Positions 5,968-13,543 of a DNA stretch of 64,000 nt are shown here, piece by piece. The notes beneath the pieces are model-generated. The model saw only the letters and a list, made by a program, of their open reading frames with translations. It was not told the origin of the DNA and did not search any database. Source of the DNA: Clostridia bacterium. Its GTDB lineage: Bacteria; Bacillota; Clostridia; Oscillospirales; CAG-272. Position 1 is the stretch's first letter. Each line of letters begins with the position of its first letter. Where the stretch lies: contig JAFVXH010000019.1 in the NCBI GenBank assembly GCA_017501225.1, positions 186,001 through 250,000 of the forward strand, given 5' to 3'. The translations under genes were made by a program, and so were the position numbers.

Positions 5968-6075
5968 ATGGATGAAGCGGGTGACGGCAAGGTCGACACC
6001 GCTTCTATGGACGTTACGGGCGATGGAAAGCTTGATATTTCCAAGCCTTACCGAGAAAATCAGGAGAAGAAATGA
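5968..6075 (+). CDS. 35-residue ORF with two EF-hand/dockerin-like loops
   Basis: Short reading frame coding two copies of a D-x-x-G-D-G-K-x-D pattern (DEAGDGKVD and DVTGDGKLD), followed by a Lys-rich tail. The spacing of Asp and Gly resembles calcium-binding loops of dockerin or EF-hand type. Its TGA overlaps the flippase ATG (ATGA). A weak CGGGGA site lies about 12 bases upstream. It is in frame with the preceding membrane-protein gene, with only the TAG at 5941 between them, so it may be a remnant of that protein's C-terminus. Whether it is translated is uncertain. Confidence 0.35.
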   Translation: MDEAGDGKVDTASMDVTGDGKLDISKPYRENQEKK

Positions 6076-7490
6076 ATCGATACCGAAAGCTTTTTTCCAA
6101 CACGGTAATATTAGGAATCGGAACCTTTGCCTCCAAGCTGCTCGTGTTCCTCTTGATGCCGCTTTACACCGCGTTGCTCTCAACCGCGGAGTACAGCACG
6201 GCAGAGCTGATCATGGGTACGGCAAATCTGCTGATCCCCATTGCCTGCGTTGGAATCTCAAACGGCATCTTCCGCTTTGCTTGTGACAAGGCGCAGGATA
6301 AAAAGAAAATATTTTCATCCAGTGTCGCGCTTTTGTGCTGCGGTCTTGGAGGGTTTTTACTGCTCTCTCCGTTGCTGCTTTTGGCGGACTATCTGCGAGC
6401 GTACACGTGGCTGATCGTCGCGTACGTCTTTTTTGCCAATCTGCAGTCGGTCTGCGCGCAGTACGTGCGCGCGGTGGACAAGACCAAGCTCTTTGCGATC
6501 CAAGGCATTTTGAACACGCTTCTGACCGTCCTTTGCAACCTGCTCTTCCTGATCGTGTTCGATCTGGGTGTCGTGGGATACGTGCTCTCGGTCGTGGTCG
6601 GCAATATCGTCACGACGGTCTTTTTGATCCTTACGGCAAAGCTCTGGCAGGTCTTTTCCGTATCGAGCATTGATAAGGGAAGCATGGGAGAGCTGTTGCG
6701 CTTCAGCCTTCCGCTCATTCCTACCACACTGTGTTGGCTGATTACCGATCTGTCCGACCGCTACCTTGTCACCTATTTCTGCGGGGCAGAGGTCAACGGA
6801 ATTTACTCGGCGGCGTATAAGATCCCAACCGTCGTCACGCTCCTTTCGAGCATTTTTATGCAGGCGTGGCAGTTCTCCGCCGTGGCAGAGGCGTCGGACG
6901 AGGAGGAATGCAGTCGCTTTTATACCAACGTGTTCAGCGGCTTTATCTCCTTTGTTATGATCGGTGCGACGGGGCTGCTGCTTTTCTCGGGACTTCTGAC
7001 AAGGCTGCTTTTGAGCACCTCCTTTCACGGAGCGGTATTGTATATGCCGACACTTTTGATCTCTGCCGCGCTTGAGGCGCTGGTTTCCTTTTTGGCAACC
7101 GTGTATCTTGTACGCAAAAAGAGTATGCATTCCTTCCTGACGGCAATGGCAGGAGCAGTTCTCAATATCCTGCTCAACGTTTGGTGGATTCCCCTGTTTG
7201 ACCGCTTGGGCTATGCTGCACTTGGAGCGGCGATCGCGACACTGACCTCTTATGCCGCCGTGCTTGTGATCCGCCTGATCGACGCGCCCCGTTGGATCAC
7301 CTTCCGCAGATATACTCTGCGCGTAACCGGATCTGCCCTGATTTTACTGGGGCTTGGCGCGGTCGTGACCTTTTCCTTGCCGTATTCCATCCTTTGGATG
7401 ACGCTTTTGACGGTCGGTATGCTGGCTCTCAACGGCTATCCGCTCTGGAAAAGCGCGGCAGCACTCCTCAAAAAACGCGGTAACGGATGA
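6072..7490 (+). CDS. Polysaccharide flippase (MOP/Wzx-like)
   Basis: A 472-residue protein with about 14 predicted membrane helices, in the MOP exporter superfamily that flips undecaprenyl-linked oligosaccharides across the membrane. The N-terminal GTFASKLLVFLLMPLYTALLSTAEY segment is typical of Wzx/RfbX-type and polysaccharide biosynthesis proteins, and the C-terminal polysaccharide-synthesis domain is also present. The start follows CAGGAGAAGAA and overlaps the short frame upstream. It ends before a clear terminator. With the O-antigen ligase-like gene at the left edge it points to a surface glycan pathway. The substrate is unknown. Confidence 0.85.
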   Translation: MNRYRKLFSNTVILGIGTFASKLLVFLLMPLYTALLSTAEYSTAELIMGTANLLIPIACVGISNGIFRFACDKAQDKKKIFSSSVALLCCGLGGFLLLSPLLLLADYLRAYTWLIVAYVFFANLQSVCAQYVRAVDKTKLFAIQGILNTLLTVLCNLLFLIVFDLGVVGYVLSVVVGNIVTTVFLILTAKLWQVFSVSSIDKGSMGELLRFSLPLIPTTLCWLITDLSDRYLVTYFCGAEVNGIYSAAYKIPTVVTLLSSIFMQAWQFSAVAEASDEEECSRFYTNVFSGFISFVMIGATGLLLFSGLLTRLLLSTSFHGAVLYMPTLLISAALEALVSFLATVYLVRKKSMHSFLTAMAGAVLNILLNVWWIPLFDRLGYAALGAAIATLTSYAAVLVIRLIDAPRWITFRRYTLRVTGSALILLGLGAVVTFSLPYSILWMTLLTVGMLALNGYPLWKSAAALLKKRGNG

Positions 7491-8550: not shown

Positions 8551-9449
8551 AGATCGTTTTTGCACTGATCAAACGAAATATCAAGCTCTTTTTCAAGGAT
8601 AAGGCGATGTTCCTCACGTCGCTCATCACCCCCGCGATCCTGCTTGTACTGTACGCCACCTTCCTTGGAAACGTTTACCGCGATAGCTTCCTTGCGTTTT
8701 TGCCGGAAGGTCTGGTTTTGTCCGATCAGGTGCTCGGAGGCATTGTGGGCGGACAGCTGATGTCCTCGATTTTAGCGGTGTCCTGCGTAACGGTTGCCGT
8801 GTGCTCCAATTTTTTGACGGTTCAGGATAAGGCGAACGGAAGCATCCGCGATTTTCTGGTTTCTCCCGTTCATCCTGCCGCGCTGGCGGTGGGATACTAT
8901 ATCGCGTCCTTCTGTTCGACCATGATCATCTGCCTGTGCGCAGCGGTGATCTGCTTCGTTTATCTGGCATTTGTGGGATGGTATCTTGCGGTCGCGGACG
9001 TATTTCTGATCCTTCTGGATATTTTCCTCTTGGTTCTGTTTGGGACGGCACTTTCCTCGATCATCAATCTGTTCCTCTCTACAAACGGACAGATCTCCGC
9101 GTTTGGAACGATCGTCAGCTCGGGCTACGGCTTTGTTTCGGGTGCCTATATGCCGATCTCGCAGTTTTCGTCGGTCTTGCAAAACGTGATCGCGTGCCTT
9201 CCGGGAACCTATGGAACCAGTCTGATGAGAGGGCACTGTATGCAGGGTGCGATCTCGGAGCTTGCCTCGCTTGGCATTCCCGCAGATGCCATTGCGGAGA
9301 TCAAACGATCGTTGGATTGCAGCATTTCCTTTTTCGGACATGAGGTTTCAACCTTGGGCTCATACGGGATCCTGATCGGAACGGATCTCTTGCTGATCGC
9401 GGTCTACGTTTTGCTCAACGTTTACCGGATGAAAAAAGCAAAGAAGTAA
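8547..9449 (+). CDS. ABC-2 type transporter permease
   Basis: A 300-residue membrane partner of the preceding ATPase, with six predicted helices and the ABC-2 membrane-domain layout: an N-terminal helix after the basic IKRNIKLFFKDKAMF stretch, a large outer loop and a cluster of helices to the C-terminus. The IRDFLVSPVHP segment is typical of the cytoplasmic coupling region. The ATG overlaps the ATPase stop. A bidirectional terminator follows and separates it from the convergent murE operon. Confidence 0.9.
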   Translation: MKIVFALIKRNIKLFFKDKAMFLTSLITPAILLVLYATFLGNVYRDSFLAFLPEGLVLSDQVLGGIVGGQLMSSILAVSCVTVAVCSNFLTVQDKANGSIRDFLVSPVHPAALAVGYYIASFCSTMIICLCAAVICFVYLAFVGWYLAVADVFLILLDIFLLVLFGTALSSIINLFLSTNGQISAFGTIVSSGYGFVSGAYMPISQFSSVLQNVIACLPGTYGTSLMRGHCMQGAISELASLGIPADAIAEIKRSLDCSISFFGHEVSTLGSYGILIGTDLLLIAVYVLLNVYRMKKAKK

Positions 9450-9461
9450 ACAAACGCAAAA

Positions 9462-9494
9462 AAAGACGGCACCGCGGCTTGCGGTACCGTCTTT
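9462..9494. terminator. Bidirectional terminator between convergent operons
   Basis: AAAGACGGCACCGC (9462-9475) pairs with GCGGTACCGTCTTT (9481-9494) with one mismatch. A-runs precede it and T-rich sequence follows, so it can serve both strands. Confidence 0.8.
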
Positions 9495-9496
9495 GT

Positions 9497-10969
9497 TTAT
9501 GCTTGCAGGGAAAGTGCCGAGCGCACGATATCGCGCTCGCAGAACGGGCGCATTTCGCCTCCGATGAGCTGATAATCCTCGTGTCCCTTTCCCGCAAGCA
9601 CCAGAATATCGCCTTTTTCCGTTTGCCGAACAGCAAACAGAATGGCTTCCTCGCGGTCTGGAATGCAAAAATAGGGAGTGGAGGATCCTTCAAAGGATCG
9701 GGAGATCTGCGCAATGATCTGCTCGGGGTCCTCGTTTGCGGGATTATCCGAGGTCAGAATGCAAAGATCACAGAGTGACGCGGCGGCATCTCCGAGCTCG
9801 CTTCTTCTGATCTGCGTACGCTCACCGACAGAGCCGAACAGACAAAGAAGACGGGAAGGCTGATAAGCGCGTAAGGAGCGCAGAAGCTCGGTCAGGGATA
9901 CGCCGTTGTGTGCATAATCAATGACCACCCACGCGCCGTTTGGCAGAGGAAGCGCTTCACAGCGTCCCGCAACCGAAACGTCGGAAAGGGCATTGGCACA
10001 GTCCAAAAGCGGAATGCCGAACACCGCGTTTGCCGTAGCCAAGGCAAGCAGGGCATTGGATACGTTGATGCTGCCGAGCATGGGAAGTGTCATGGAAAGG
10101 CTTTTGCCGTCATGGCAAACGGAAAATCTGCTGCCAAGACCGTTGTACAGAAACGTGGGCTCGATCCTCTCGGCAGTGTAGTCCGCGCAAGCGTTTACAG
10201 AGCAGGACACGCGCGTTTGGATGGGAGAATCCGCAAGGATGCGCGCGGAGGCGTCATCGTCCGCGTTCAGGACGGCGCTTTGCGCGCCAAAGTCTTCAAA
10301 AAGGCGTTTTTTGCAAGCAAAATAGTCCTTGACCGATGTGTGCTCCCCGATTCCTACGTGGTCGTGAGAAAAGTTGGTAAAGAGCGCGCAGAAGACGCTC
10401 GTGCCCGTCAGGCGGTGCTGCAGGATTGCTTGCGAGGAAACCTCCAGCACAACCGCCTGCATGCCCGCCTCTGCCATTTCATAAAAGGTGCGTTGCAGCG
10501 TAACGGCATCGGGCGTGGTGTTCTTGGTTTGTTTCTGAACGCTTCCGTATGTAATTCCGTTGGTGCCGACGTATCCGCAAAAGATGCCTGCGTGATTGAG
10601 TATGCGGGTCAGCATTTGTGCCGTAGTGGTTTTTCCCTTGGTTCCCGTAATTCCGATGACCTTCAGCCTTTCCGACGGATTTCCGTAAAAGCGCGACGCA
10701 AGGATTCCAAGCGCTTTGCGGCTGCTCTTGACACGCAGAACGTGGGCATCCTTGGGGAGAGGTAATTCCTTTTCCGCAACAAAGCAACGGCATCCGTTTT
10801 CATATGCTGTCAGGGCATAATCGTGCCCGTCCGCGCGCAAGCCCCGAATGCATACGAACAGGGAATCGGAGTGCGCCTCGCTTGCACGCTCGGTCAGGTG
10901 TGAAATTTCGCGCTGCGGAACGCCTGAAAGATCGGTCACAAGGGGAGAAAGTAAATCCTTGAGTGTCAC
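9497..10969 (-). CDS. murE: MurE-type UDP-MurNAc-L-Ala-D-Glu ligase, lysine-type motif
   Basis: A 490-residue Mur ligase that would add the third amino acid to the UDP-MurNAc dipeptide. The ATP loop GITGTKGKTTT lies near residue 110, VLEVSSQ and TNFSHDH follow, and a lysine in YFACKKR fits the carbamylated site. The amino-acid pocket reads SDNPANEDP, not DNPR. The Arg marks meso-diaminopimelate enzymes, while DNPA is described for the L-lysine enzyme of Staphylococcus aureus. GTG 10969 overlaps the racemase stop (GTGA) and follows GGAGG. It lies outside any mur/fts cluster, so it may be the main MurE or a specialised paralogue. Confidence 0.88.
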   Translation of the reverse strand: MTLKDLLSPLVTDLSGVPQREISHLTERASEAHSDSLFVCIRGLRADGHDYALTAYENGCRCFVAEKELPLPKDAHVLRVKSSRKALGILASRFYGNPSERLKVIGITGTKGKTTTAQMLTRILNHAGIFCGYVGTNGITYGSVQKQTKNTTPDAVTLQRTFYEMAEAGMQAVVLEVSSQAILQHRLTGTSVFCALFTNFSHDHVGIGEHTSVKDYFACKKRLFEDFGAQSAVLNADDDASARILADSPIQTRVSCSVNACADYTAERIEPTFLYNGLGSRFSVCHDGKSLSMTLPMLGSINVSNALLALATANAVFGIPLLDCANALSDVSVAGRCEALPLPNGAWVVIDYAHNGVSLTELLRSLRAYQPSRLLCLFGSVGERTQIRRSELGDAAASLCDLCILTSDNPANEDPEQIIAQISRSFEGSSTPYFCIPDREEAILFAVRQTEKGDILVLAGKGHEDYQLIGGEMRPFCERDIVRSALSLQA

Positions 10970-11721
10970 GCAGGACCTCCTTTGGAGGACGCCATGAATT
11001 CCTCCTCAAAGCCGATGGGCTCCTTGCCGCAGGACAGAACGGTGTGATATGCCAGAACGTCCAGAGAATCCAGGAAGATCTGATCGTCAAGAGAGTGCTT
11101 TTTGAGCAGGGAAAGCTCGGTACAGCCCAGCACCAGGCGCTGAGCACCGCGCGCGATCAGTGCGTGTGCGACGGTGTAGAGCTTGGAAAGATCGGGCGCG
11201 CGGTTTTGCTTGATCTCATCATAAATGAGCGAGGTGATCAGCGCTTGCTCCTCCTTGGTGGGAATGAGGCACTTGGTCTTGCTCCCGTTGCAAAAATACT
11301 GATAAGAGCCCGACCTGACCGTCCCCTCGGTTGCCAGAAGCCCGAATTTTTCCACGCCTTGCTCGGTCAGGTGTCCGACCGTTTTTTCAATGATATTCAA
11401 GATCGGAACGGGACAATCGCGTTGCAGCTCCTCGTAAAAGGTGTGCGCGGTGTTGCAGGGAATGACGATCAGGGTAGCCCCCGCGCCAACCAAGCGATCA
11501 CGCTCCTGCTTCATCGCAGGGAGAGGGCTTTGATCGGATGTGCCCAATATGTAAGCGGTTCGGTCGGGTGTCGTGGCACGGCTGCTGATCAAAAGGTCAA
11601 TGTGTCCTTGATCTCCGTCTGCTTTTGTATGGGAGGTGAGAAGCTCGTAAAAATAGACGCTTGACATCGGTCCCAGACCGCCAAGCACGCCGAGTAAGGG
11701 TTTGTTTTTCTGACTGTCCAC
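10966..11721 (-). CDS. Aspartate/glutamate racemase family protein
   Basis: About 251 residues of the cofactor-independent two-cysteine racemase family. The catalytic cysteines are in IPCNTAHTF and VLGCTELSLL, and the N-terminus has GVLGGLGPMSS. The NTAH form is closer to aspartate or broad-specificity racemases (RacD/YgeA-like) than to MurI. The GTG at 11721 is preferred because a GAGGAGGAG site lies at normal distance. The ATG at 11739 overlaps the upstream stop but has no site of its own. Lying between an ATP-grasp-like gene and a Lys-type MurE, it may supply D-Asp or D-Glu for the cell wall; that role is inferred. Confidence 0.85.
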   Translation of the reverse strand: MDSQKNKPLLGVLGGLGPMSSVYFYELLTSHTKADGDQGHIDLLISSRATTPDRTAYILGTSDQSPLPAMKQERDRLVGAGATLIVIPCNTAHTFYEELQRDCPVPILNIIEKTVGHLTEQGVEKFGLLATEGTVRSGSYQYFCNGSKTKCLIPTKEEQALITSLIYDEIKQNRAPDLSKLYTVAHALIARGAQRLVLGCTELSLLKKHSLDDQIFLDSLDVLAYHTVLSCGKEPIGFEEEFMASSKGGPA

Positions 11722-11735
11722 CGTTGCTCCTCCTC

Positions 11736-12128
11736 TCATTCTTCGGTATTTCGATTGTTGATCTGTGCTTCCGTCCGGCGGTCTGCCAGAACGTACCTGC
11801 TTTCCAGTGCTTCCTGCTGATCCCAAAGAAAATCGACGTATTCCTCGGAGCAAGGGAAGAGATACAGGATGACGTCAGCATTTCCCATCTGCTCGGCAAA
11901 ATCCAACAGTGCCGTTGTCATTAAGAGTTGTCCGCGCGTTTTTCCGACCTTATGAAACCTGAGAAAGGCGGAAAAGCGGAGCGAGAGCGGAATTTTGTTG
12001 CAAAACACGTGAGAAACGACGCCGTACCGACGGAAGATCTTCAGGGAAAGCTCCGCCGTATGTGCCGAGCAACCGAGAAGAACGGGCACAAGCTCGCCCG
12101 ACAAAATTTCAGGCACAATAAAATCCAT
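11736..12128 (-). CDS. Short protein resembling a pre-ATP-grasp domain
   Basis: A 130-residue protein without signal peptide or membrane helix. The pattern PVLLG...HTAELSLKIFRRYG, a basic middle and an ILYLFPCSEEYVDFL stretch resemble the N-terminal Rossmann-like domain that precedes the ATP-grasp fold in D-aspartate-ligase-like enzymes. The ATP-grasp catalytic part is missing. It could be a truncated ligase, a free-standing domain or an unrelated protein. It is first in the operon with the racemase and murE. A TATAAT-like -10 lies on the minus strand at 12192-12187, though no good -35 was found. Confidence 0.45.
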   Translation of the reverse strand: MDFIVPEILSGELVPVLLGCSAHTAELSLKIFRRYGVVSHVFCNKIPLSLRFSAFLRFHKVGKTRGQLLMTTALLDFAEQMGNADVILYLFPCSEEYVDFLWDQQEALESRYVLADRRTEAQINNRNTEE

Positions 12129-12254
12129 CGCCGCATTCCTCCCGTTTTCGTTTTGTCGGATCCACCGTTTTTGCGATCTTCACTCTATTATAGCACATTT
12201 TTTGACAGAAAGAAAGAAGTTTATAAAAAACTCTTTGTTTTTTCAAAAAAAGAA

Positions 12255-12282
12255 TTGCATTTCTCGTCTTTTTTGATATAAT
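12255..12282 (+). promoter_or_regulatory. Sigma-A promoter of the acetyltransferase gene
   Basis: TTGCAT at 12255-12260 and TATAAT at 12277-12282 with a 16-base spacer. Transcription would start near 12289, which rules out the GTG at 12290 as translation start. Confidence 0.75.
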
Positions 12283-12316
12283 AGACCCAGTGGAAGAAAA
12301 CAAAAGGATGACTGTG

Positions 12317-12919
12317 ATGAAGAAAGAAAAGCTGTACCGTATATTTTCACATCTGCCCGAGCTTACGACAAAGCGTTTGACCTTGCGGAAGATTTTGGTA
12401 TCGGATACCGAGGACGTTTACGCGTACTCCTCCCGCCAGGACGTGACGCAGTATCTGACGTGGTATCCCCATCCCGACAGAGCCTACACCAGAGAATATC
12501 TGCAGTATCTGGGCAACCGCTATGCTGCGGGCATGTACTACGATTGGGCGATCTTTTACGAGCCCGAGGGACGCATGGTAGGTACCTGCGGATTTACCTC
12601 CTTTAACTGCACCTCGGACAGTGCCGAGGTCGGATACGTCTTAAATCCCGAATATTGGGGAAAGGGCATTGCGCAGGAGGCGCTTTGCCGTGTGCTCAAT
12701 TTCGGATTTGAAAAGCTCAACCTCAACCGCATCGAAGCGCGCTATATGGAAGGAAACGAGCGCTCGCGCAAGGTCATGGAGCGCGTCGGTATGACCTATG
12801 AGGGAACCCTTCGCCAGGGGATGCTTGTCAAGGGAAATTATATCGACGTCGGAATTTGCTCGATCCTGCGAAGCGAATGGGAAGCAAATCCAAACAAAAC
12901 GAATGCTTTTTTTGAATAA
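12317..12919 (+). CDS. GNAT N-acetyltransferase, RimJ/RimL type
   Basis: A 200-residue member of the acetyl-CoA-dependent GNAT family. The N-terminal LTTKRLTLRKI segment and the core G-x-x-G-x-G/A-x-E type motif (YWGKGIAQEAL) are characteristic of the RimJ/RimL branch, which acetylates protein N-termini, amino acids or antibiotics. The C-terminal NLNRIEARYMEGNERSRKVMERVGM is typical. The ATG at 12317 is chosen because AAAGGAT lies 9 bases upstream and the promoter excludes earlier starts. It is a single-gene transcript ahead of rubrerythrin. Substrate unknown. Confidence 0.88.
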   Translation: MKKEKLYRIFSHLPELTTKRLTLRKILVSDTEDVYAYSSRQDVTQYLTWYPHPDRAYTREYLQYLGNRYAAGMYYDWAIFYEPEGRMVGTCGFTSFNCTSDSAEVGYVLNPEYWGKGIAQEALCRVLNFGFEKLNLNRIEARYMEGNERSRKVMERVGMTYEGTLRQGMLVKGNYIDVGICSILRSEWEANPNKTNAFFE

Positions 12920-12982: not shown

Positions 12983-13543
12983 ATGGCAAGCTACACAGAA
13001 ACGGGCGTGCTTTTGGAAAAGCTCGCGGGCACGCAGACCGAACGCAATCTGCATACCGCACTCAGCGGTGAATCTCAGGCGTATTTACGCTACAAATGGT
13101 TTGAAAAGAAGGCGAAGGAGGACGGATACGTTGAGATCTCCCAGCTCTTTCGCGATACGGCGGACAATGAAAAGGAGCACGCTGAGCTGTGGTTTAAGTA
13201 CCTTGGCGGCTGGTCCTCGACCGAAAAGAATTTAGAGGTGGCATCCAAGGGCGAAAATTTTGAGTGGTCCACGATGTACGCGGAGTTTGAAAAGACCGCA
13301 AGGGAGGAGGGCTTTGATGCCATTGCCGGACTCTTTGCGCGCGTTGCCTCCATTGAAAAGCAGCACGAGGACAATTATCAAAGGGAGCTGCAGCGTGTCA
13401 GGAACGGAGAGGTGTTTACCTCGCAGAGCGCGGACACCAAGTGGATCTGCCTCAACTGCGGATACGTGGTTGTCGGCAAGGAGCCGCCCAGGATCTGCCC
13501 GACCTGCATGCATCCGCAGGGTTATTTCAAGCAGCAAAGCTGA
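12983..13543 (+). CDS. Rubrerythrin
   Basis: A 186-residue protein with an N-terminal ferritin-like four-helix domain (about residues 10-145, with ExxH-type diiron ligands in SGESQAYLRYK, DNEKEHAELW and SIEKQHEDNY) and a C-terminal rubredoxin-like zinc/iron knuckle (WICLNCGYV and ICPTCMHPQGYF). Rubrerythrins reduce hydrogen peroxide in the cytoplasm of anaerobes using electrons from rubredoxin, which fits a strict anaerobe. A TTGGAGG site precedes the ATG. It is monocistronic, with a strong terminator just after the stop. Confidence 0.95.
   Translation: MASYTETGVLLEKLAGTQTERNLHTALSGESQAYLRYKWFEKKAKEDGYVEISQLFRDTADNEKEHAELWFKYLGGWSSTEKNLEVASKGENFEWSTMYAEFEKTAREEGFDAIAGLFARVASIEKQHEDNYQRELQRVRNGEVFTSQSADTKWICLNCGYVVVGKEPPRICPTCMHPQGYFKQQS

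Follow-up and report, generated by a model that had tools for sequence, protein, structure and literature searches.

The stretch of DNA analyzed here (the window, 64,000 nucleotides, G000:C18:186001-250000 of a 1.74 Mb genome in 23 contigs that is 95.5% complete) carries three minus-strand genes in the order p130, racemase and murE2. With moderate confidence we favour the reading that MurE2 is an accessory second MurE, likely making a minor L-Lys (or L-Orn) stem peptide, and that its operon is a reduced form of a D-Asp bridge operon. The words family, genus and order refer below to the group codes of the genome set (f1, g1 etc.). All three genes lie where an initial annotation, which described a DNPAN-type MurE, an Asp-type racemase and a short ligase-like gene, had placed them. 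The features of the locus are the following.

9497..10969, minus strand: murE2, second MurE-type Mur ligase of 490 amino acids, its GTG start overlapping the racemase stop (open reading frame, Pfam, NCBIfam)
9734..9748, minus strand: DNPAN codons, residues 408-412, with Ala in place of the Arg of DNPR (alignment, sequence)
10966..11721, minus strand: Asp/Glu-family amino acid racemase of 251 amino acids from the likely GTG (Pfam, NCBIfam, sequence)
11736..12128, minus strand: p130, 130 amino acids, free-standing counterpart of the N-terminal (pre-ATP-grasp) domain in D-Asp-ligase-like ATP-grasp proteins (profiles, model, synteny)
9462..9494, minus strand: terminator-like stem of 14 pairs plus a T run, directly 3' of murE2 (terminator scan)
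12187..12192, minus strand: extended -10 box TGCTATAAT, 58 nt upstream of p130, with no good -35 (promoter scan, sequence)
12290..12919, plus strand: GNAT acetyltransferase, divergent neighbour and synteny anchor outside the operon (named by eye)
6072..7490, plus strand: flippase-like membrane protein, anchoring synteny on the opposite side and common to G153 (41%) (named by eye)

Of the 22 genus relatives in which a MurE2 locus was read, 20 have the three genes side by side, the exceptions being G021, which has no racemase, and G004, where the locus is interrupted by a contig end; hence the grouping is not due to chance. In the window the spacing and -10 letters of the box before p130 read TGC-TATAAT. 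The box, having no good -35, is absent from the list of a stricter promoter scan, and TGn-TATAAT or TGn-TAGAAT is found 24-58 nt upstream in 13 of the 18 genus operon loci examined. The interval 9300-12400 contains five terminator-like sites, against a mean of 5.0 in shuffled sequences, and the stem following murE2 is by far the longest. The -10 box, the gene overlap and the terminator stem therefore make the reading of p130-racemase-murE2 as an operon well supported, and the three genes would be expressed together from their own promoter-like site. Outside it, a rubrerythrin-like gene (named by eye; 12983-13543, plus strand) adjoins the GNAT gene, and the two are again neighbours of the locus in several genus members and in G272.

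The genome contains another MurE (MurE1, C18:68584-69996, MurE by NCBIfam) with the motif DNSRGED, located in surroundings that by eye are dcw-like (mraZ, rsmH, a PBP, murE1, murF, ftsW, murG and ftsZ); MurE1 should be the housekeeping enzyme. Both ddh and lysA are present above their curated cut-offs, so that meso-DAP and L-Lys can both be made. Of the two genes for which the initial annotation had suggested a search, lysA was thus found in this genome and dapF was not. Among the 34 genus relatives, lysA occurs in 29, ddh in 30 and dapF in six, two of these six being weak or partial matches. The racemase was also considered as a substitute for the missing DapF, an idea rejected as needless with ddh present. 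The location of a DNSR-type MurE1 in the dcw cluster, together with ddh and lysA, therefore makes the MurE of the window an accessory second one.

MurE2 has the N-terminal, middle and C-terminal domains of Mur ligases, scores 400.7 bits with the murE model TIGR01085 (cut-off 257.3) and keeps the catalytic motifs GTxGKT, DYAH and GKGHE. The initial annotation was right that the arginine of DNPR, which binds the DAP carboxylate, is missing from its pocket. DNPAN is itself rare, the fourth residue of the motif being nearly always Gly in the genus and Asp in many sister genera; the conserved trait is the absence of Arg and not DNPAN. The DAP-ligase model NF001126 of NCBIfam is passed by the window protein (418.4 bits, cut-off 373), and its best PDB matches are DAP enzymes (8f5d, 8e-80; the S. 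aureus enzyme 4c12 follows at 4.1e-60). The L-Lys model NF010628 (cut-off 536) is reached neither by this protein (304.8 bits) nor by the MurE2 of an intact cluster, L098 (359.3 bits), whose best PDB match is the L-Lys enzyme of S. aureus (4c12, 1.3e-74; E. coli, 2.8e-69). According to an account of the S. aureus MurE (PMC3829189), the epsilon-amino group of Lys is contacted by Asp-406 and Glu-460, the enzyme has no Arg to bind the second carboxylate of DAP, and the substitution A409R gained no DAP activity, the DNPA motif not being the sole determinant. Residues D408 and E464 of MurE2 align with Asp-406 and Glu-460. They fit a diamino acid and cannot separate Lys from DAP, because canonical MurE has both. 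L-Lys or L-Orn would most likely be the substrate of MurE2.

The racemase probably starts at the GTG at 11721, behind AGGAGG, the mechanical open reading frame reaching 11853. It matches Pfam Asp_Glu_race, TIGR00035 (182.9 bits, cut-off 93.1) and the CuyB model NF052483 (195.9 bits, cut-off 190), and both Cys motifs, PCNTAH and GCTE, are present. Its earlier description as an Asp-type racemase agrees with these matches; the predicted substrate of this Asp/Glu-family enzyme is Asp, Glu or cysteate. It could also be imagined that MurE2 adds a residue other than Lys or Orn, or serves a product outside the wall, with the racemase supplying a D-amino acid. The overlap of the racemase and murE2 genes, which remain paired after the loss of the ligase described below, and the drift of the fourth motif residue among G, A, D and N would suit such a role. 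However, MurE2 still has the amino-group ligands D408 and E464, as fits a diamino acid, and it occurs without the racemase in G021, G253 and G272, which makes this alternative quite unlikely.

A full-length second MurE close to that of the window is found in 22 of the 34 genus relatives, and G007 and G026 have a partial one, cut off by contig ends. The remaining 10 show no MurE2, hence the system is dispensable. MurE2 is also found in other genera of the same family. Position 4 of the motif is not Arg in the MurE2-type enzymes of 38 of 39 family genomes, while Arg is present in MurE1 (22/22) and in the same-subtype MurE of Lachnospiraceae (16/16 genomes); for these counts the subtype was assigned by DYAHN versus other letters, which leaves a degenerate copy of G272 outside it and places third-type enzymes of G192 and G097 inside. 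The subtype marks SSQ and DYAHN are common to MurE2 and the Lachnospiraceae type, MurE1 having mostly SSH and DYAHT. A tree of 106 rows was obtained by a quick search with SH-aLRT alone as support; part of the named MurE loci were dropped, not all third-type MurE-like enzymes are included, and G272 forms a very long branch. In this tree a branch with SH-aLRT 97 sets apart the family's Arg-less enzymes together with the named L145, L149 and L198, which border on the Lachnospiraceae type and are distant from MurE1. On the simplest history, the Arg-less enzymes would derive from a Lachnospiraceae-type MurE by loss of the Arg that it carried. An origin of MurE2 as a recent copy of MurE1 was rejected, since the tree groups the MurE1 of the genus with the canonical MurE of the order.

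Several unusual MurE forms were seen in the course of this comparison. In G127 a DapF-like part (identified by eye) and a MurE are fused in a 786-aa open frame (L259:5071-7428, plus strand) with the motif DNPRW; it adjoins a separate canonical MurE1, and no other family enzyme of the MurE2 subtype carries the Arg. The MurE2-like protein of G272 (L101:1837-3312, plus strand), beside a 120-aa relative of p130, is devoid of DYAH and GKGHE and looks like a pseudoenzyme. A third MurE-like type (L261:952-2463, minus strand; L266:5641-7218, minus strand; L104:141-1652, plus strand), with motifs EDSGE, DDPGY and DDPQY, sits near AsnB or ATP-grasp ligase genes.

The origin of the operon is suggested by gene order in relatives. 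A profile built from 20 p130 proteins matches the N-terminus of open frames of 408-449 aa in 19 other genomes of the order, and 18 loci of these ATP-grasp matches were fetched. Five of them (L096, L097, L098, L102 and L107) have the order AsnB-ligase-racemase-MurE2, the genomes with this intact cluster being G224, G180, G060, G153 and G262, all of sister genera. L099 is without AsnB and L100 without the racemase; in L106 and L108-L112, which come from other families of the order, the ligase, the racemase and AsnB occur in varying order and MurE2 is absent, and the remaining five (L101, L103-L105 and L113) differ or are hard to read. The full cluster is also present on JAFXKJ010000140 (L149; Clostridia bacterium RGIG6494, sheep rectum). 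The ATP-grasp proteins, of about 410 aa, match known ATP-grasp families weakly, and it is their gene context that points to D-Asp ligases. Gene order in G153 runs flippase, MurE2, racemase, ligase, AsnB and GNAT, and in the window flippase, two ABC genes, MurE2, racemase, p130 and GNAT, the GNAT neighbour standing beside most genus loci. Therefore, p130 stands at the former place of the ligase. Reduced forms of a related kind are also seen in G035, G253 and G272. The aspartate-ammonia ligase AsnA adjoins MurE2 in G036 (L056:7439-8443, plus strand) and the ATP-grasp ligase in G123 (L105:4379-5383, minus strand), and lies near a p130 that stands alone in G028 and G016 (L125 and L127); AsnA might be a replacement of AsnB.

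The initial annotation had proposed a wall with L-Lys in the stem peptide and D-Asp in the bridge, and the intact cluster shows that machinery of this kind exists in sister genera. The Arg-less motif, the Asp-type racemase and the ligase N-terminal domain point in the same direction. The organism of the window itself does not bear the proposal out. The observation named as contrary to it, a second DNPR-type murE in the mur cluster, was made in the form of MurE1, which has its Arg in the motif DNSR. The full-length ATP-grasp ligase that the annotation had thought worth seeking in this genome did not appear: a ligase profile matched p130 only, with no full-length ligase and no catalytic ATP-grasp domain, and no full-length ligase was found in the genus. 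An AsnB homologue (E<=1e-60) was found neither in this genome nor in any of the 34 genus relatives, and FemAB was found in one relative, weakly, and not in this genome. Hence no known enzyme would build a bridge in the genus, and the L-Lys-D-Asx bridge set of this genome is incomplete, the racemase being present, the ligase truncated and an AsnH-like amidase not found. The completeness of 95.5% leaves a possible gap, yet the genus agrees. A D-Asp bridge in this organism is thus unlikely, and a wall made of L-Lys stems bridged by D-Asp very improbable. In another part of the order (G037-G059) FemAB occurs in 15 of 23 members but neither in G049 nor in G058, the only ones with a full-length ATP-grasp ligase; the numbers are small, yet the two bridge systems may be mutually exclusive.

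The preferred reading, an accessory MurE2 in a reduced operon, would start from an ancestral AsnB-D-Asp ligase-racemase-MurE2 cluster that built L-Lys stems and joined them by a D-Asp/D-Asn bridge. In the genus of the window AsnB and the ATP-grasp domain of the ligase would have been lost in place, and the ligase N-terminal domain, the racemase and MurE2 would have been retained under a vegetative-looking promoter.

The p130 protein has no match in Pfam or NCBIfam. The profile described above matches 22 of 245 genomes in all, this one included, and in the reverse search a profile of 15 ATP-grasp proteins matches p130 with E 6.5e-11 in this genome. The likeness to the N-terminal domain of D-aspartate ligase noticed at first reading is thus supported in both directions, and so is the absence of the catalytic part, p130 ending after the N-terminal domain. 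A ligase split into two genes was discarded, no second half being found in this genome. Against PDB sequences the p130 profile gave only a chance-level catalase match (E 0.11), and in viral contigs patterns were matched with no relative confirmed. A structure model, made from a three-row alignment, is of low confidence (mean pLDDT 64.9) and shows alternating strands and helices; a fold search with it retrieved many Rossmann-like folds, including PurT, PurD, biotin carboxylase and PylC, none with E <0.001. The structure prediction suggested in the initial annotation is therefore no more than consistent with a pre-ATP-grasp domain. By the profile matches, p130 is the N-terminal domain of a D-Asp-ligase-like ATP-grasp protein, standing alone.

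The operon could also be a decaying remnant of the cluster with no present function. The family does show a stepwise loss, from the full cluster to a form without AsnB and with a truncated ligase, then to p130 alone beside the same GNAT gene in G016, G028, G030 and G031 (four of the 10 genus relatives without MurE2) and finally to nothing detected; the G272 protein without DYAH and GKGHE points the same way. L128 (G004) was dropped as a further orphan p130, since it is at a contig end and the racemase and MurE2 of G004 are at the end of another contig (L048). However, MurE2 and the racemase of the window retain their catalytic motifs, and the promoter box, the ribosome sites and the gene overlaps are likewise preserved. 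Moreover, of the 14 closest pairs of p130, the ten whose dS is usable have dN/dS of 0.08-0.24, the orphan pair G028/G016 with 0.24 included; looser orphan pairs, in which dS is high, give 0.27-0.37. These ratios indicate purifying selection on p130, also where it is alone, so that it would not be junk, and decay is decidedly unlikely. Since four orphan genomes keep p130, it probably has a role that needs neither the racemase nor MurE2. The residues SHxFC...H are invariant in the p130 of the genus, kept in the orphans and missing from the ligases. That p130 could be an adaptor or regulator of Mur ligases is a guess.

A different partition of labour would be two walls in one life cycle, one MurE serving the vegetative wall and the other the spore cortex. 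The SpoIVA ATPase is encoded in this genome, which is probably spore-forming, and in 29 of the 34 genus relatives, and both MurE types occur together in genomes across the family; judged by the sigma-A-like extended -10 box before its operon, MurE2 would be the enzyme of vegetative growth. Nevertheless, it is MurE1 that the dcw cluster holds, genus members such as G013 and G030 (95 and 97% complete) have SpoIVA and no MurE2, and a search of open-licence literature brought up no paper on such a gene pair. Two walls of this kind are unlikely. Somewhat more plausible, though less likely than not, is an extension of the accessory reading in which two stems are made in one cell line of a spore-forming family, MurE1 adding DAP and MurE2 Lys, and in which the truncated ligase has been recruited as a regulator or adaptor, p130, that outlives the pathway.

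A bacterium is usually described with one MurE. In the open-licence literature no title was found on a clostridial D-Asp ligase cluster that includes a second MurE, and Clostridia are described with a DAP wall (PMC4015370). A family with two MurE types, one of them tied to a D-Asp bridge cluster, makes the two-stem-peptide cell directly testable, including its timing. DAP and Lys muropeptides differ in their sensing by NOD1 and NOD2 (a point on which PMC11382707 touches), and MurE2 bears on which muropeptides such bacteria shed to host sensors. In addition, p130 looks like a non-catalytic ATP-grasp domain held by selection after the loss of the enzyme.

One of the nearest described systems is that of L. 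lactis (PMC4155827), where racD and aslA belong to a common operon and the D-Asp bridge, once added, is amidated by AsnH; the sister genera hold the same three activities in one cluster. The same source places asnB1 of L. plantarum, which amidates DAP, next to murE, and AsnB near a MurE is therefore no proof of a D-Asp bridge by itself. In contrast to L. lactis, MurE is here part of the cluster, and in the window the ligase is reduced to its N-terminal domain, AsnB is gone and a DAP-type MurE1 coexists. With the S. aureus MurE (4c12, as presented in PMC3829189) MurE2 shares the DNPA motif and the aligned Asp and Glu ligands of the epsilon-amino group; it differs in being of the Lachnospiraceae-like subtype (SSQ, DYAHN), in falling below the L-Lys NCBIfam cut-off and in being a second copy. 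The Lachnospiraceae-type MurE (Robinsoniella L150, Roseburia L154) has the same subtype marks and occupies a neighbouring tree clade, but carries the Arg at motif position 4 that MurE2 is without. Lysinibacillus sphaericus builds a dual wall, with Lys-D-Asp in growth and DAP in the cortex, and the likeness to the system proposed here would lie in the use of two stem-peptide diamino acids by one spore former.
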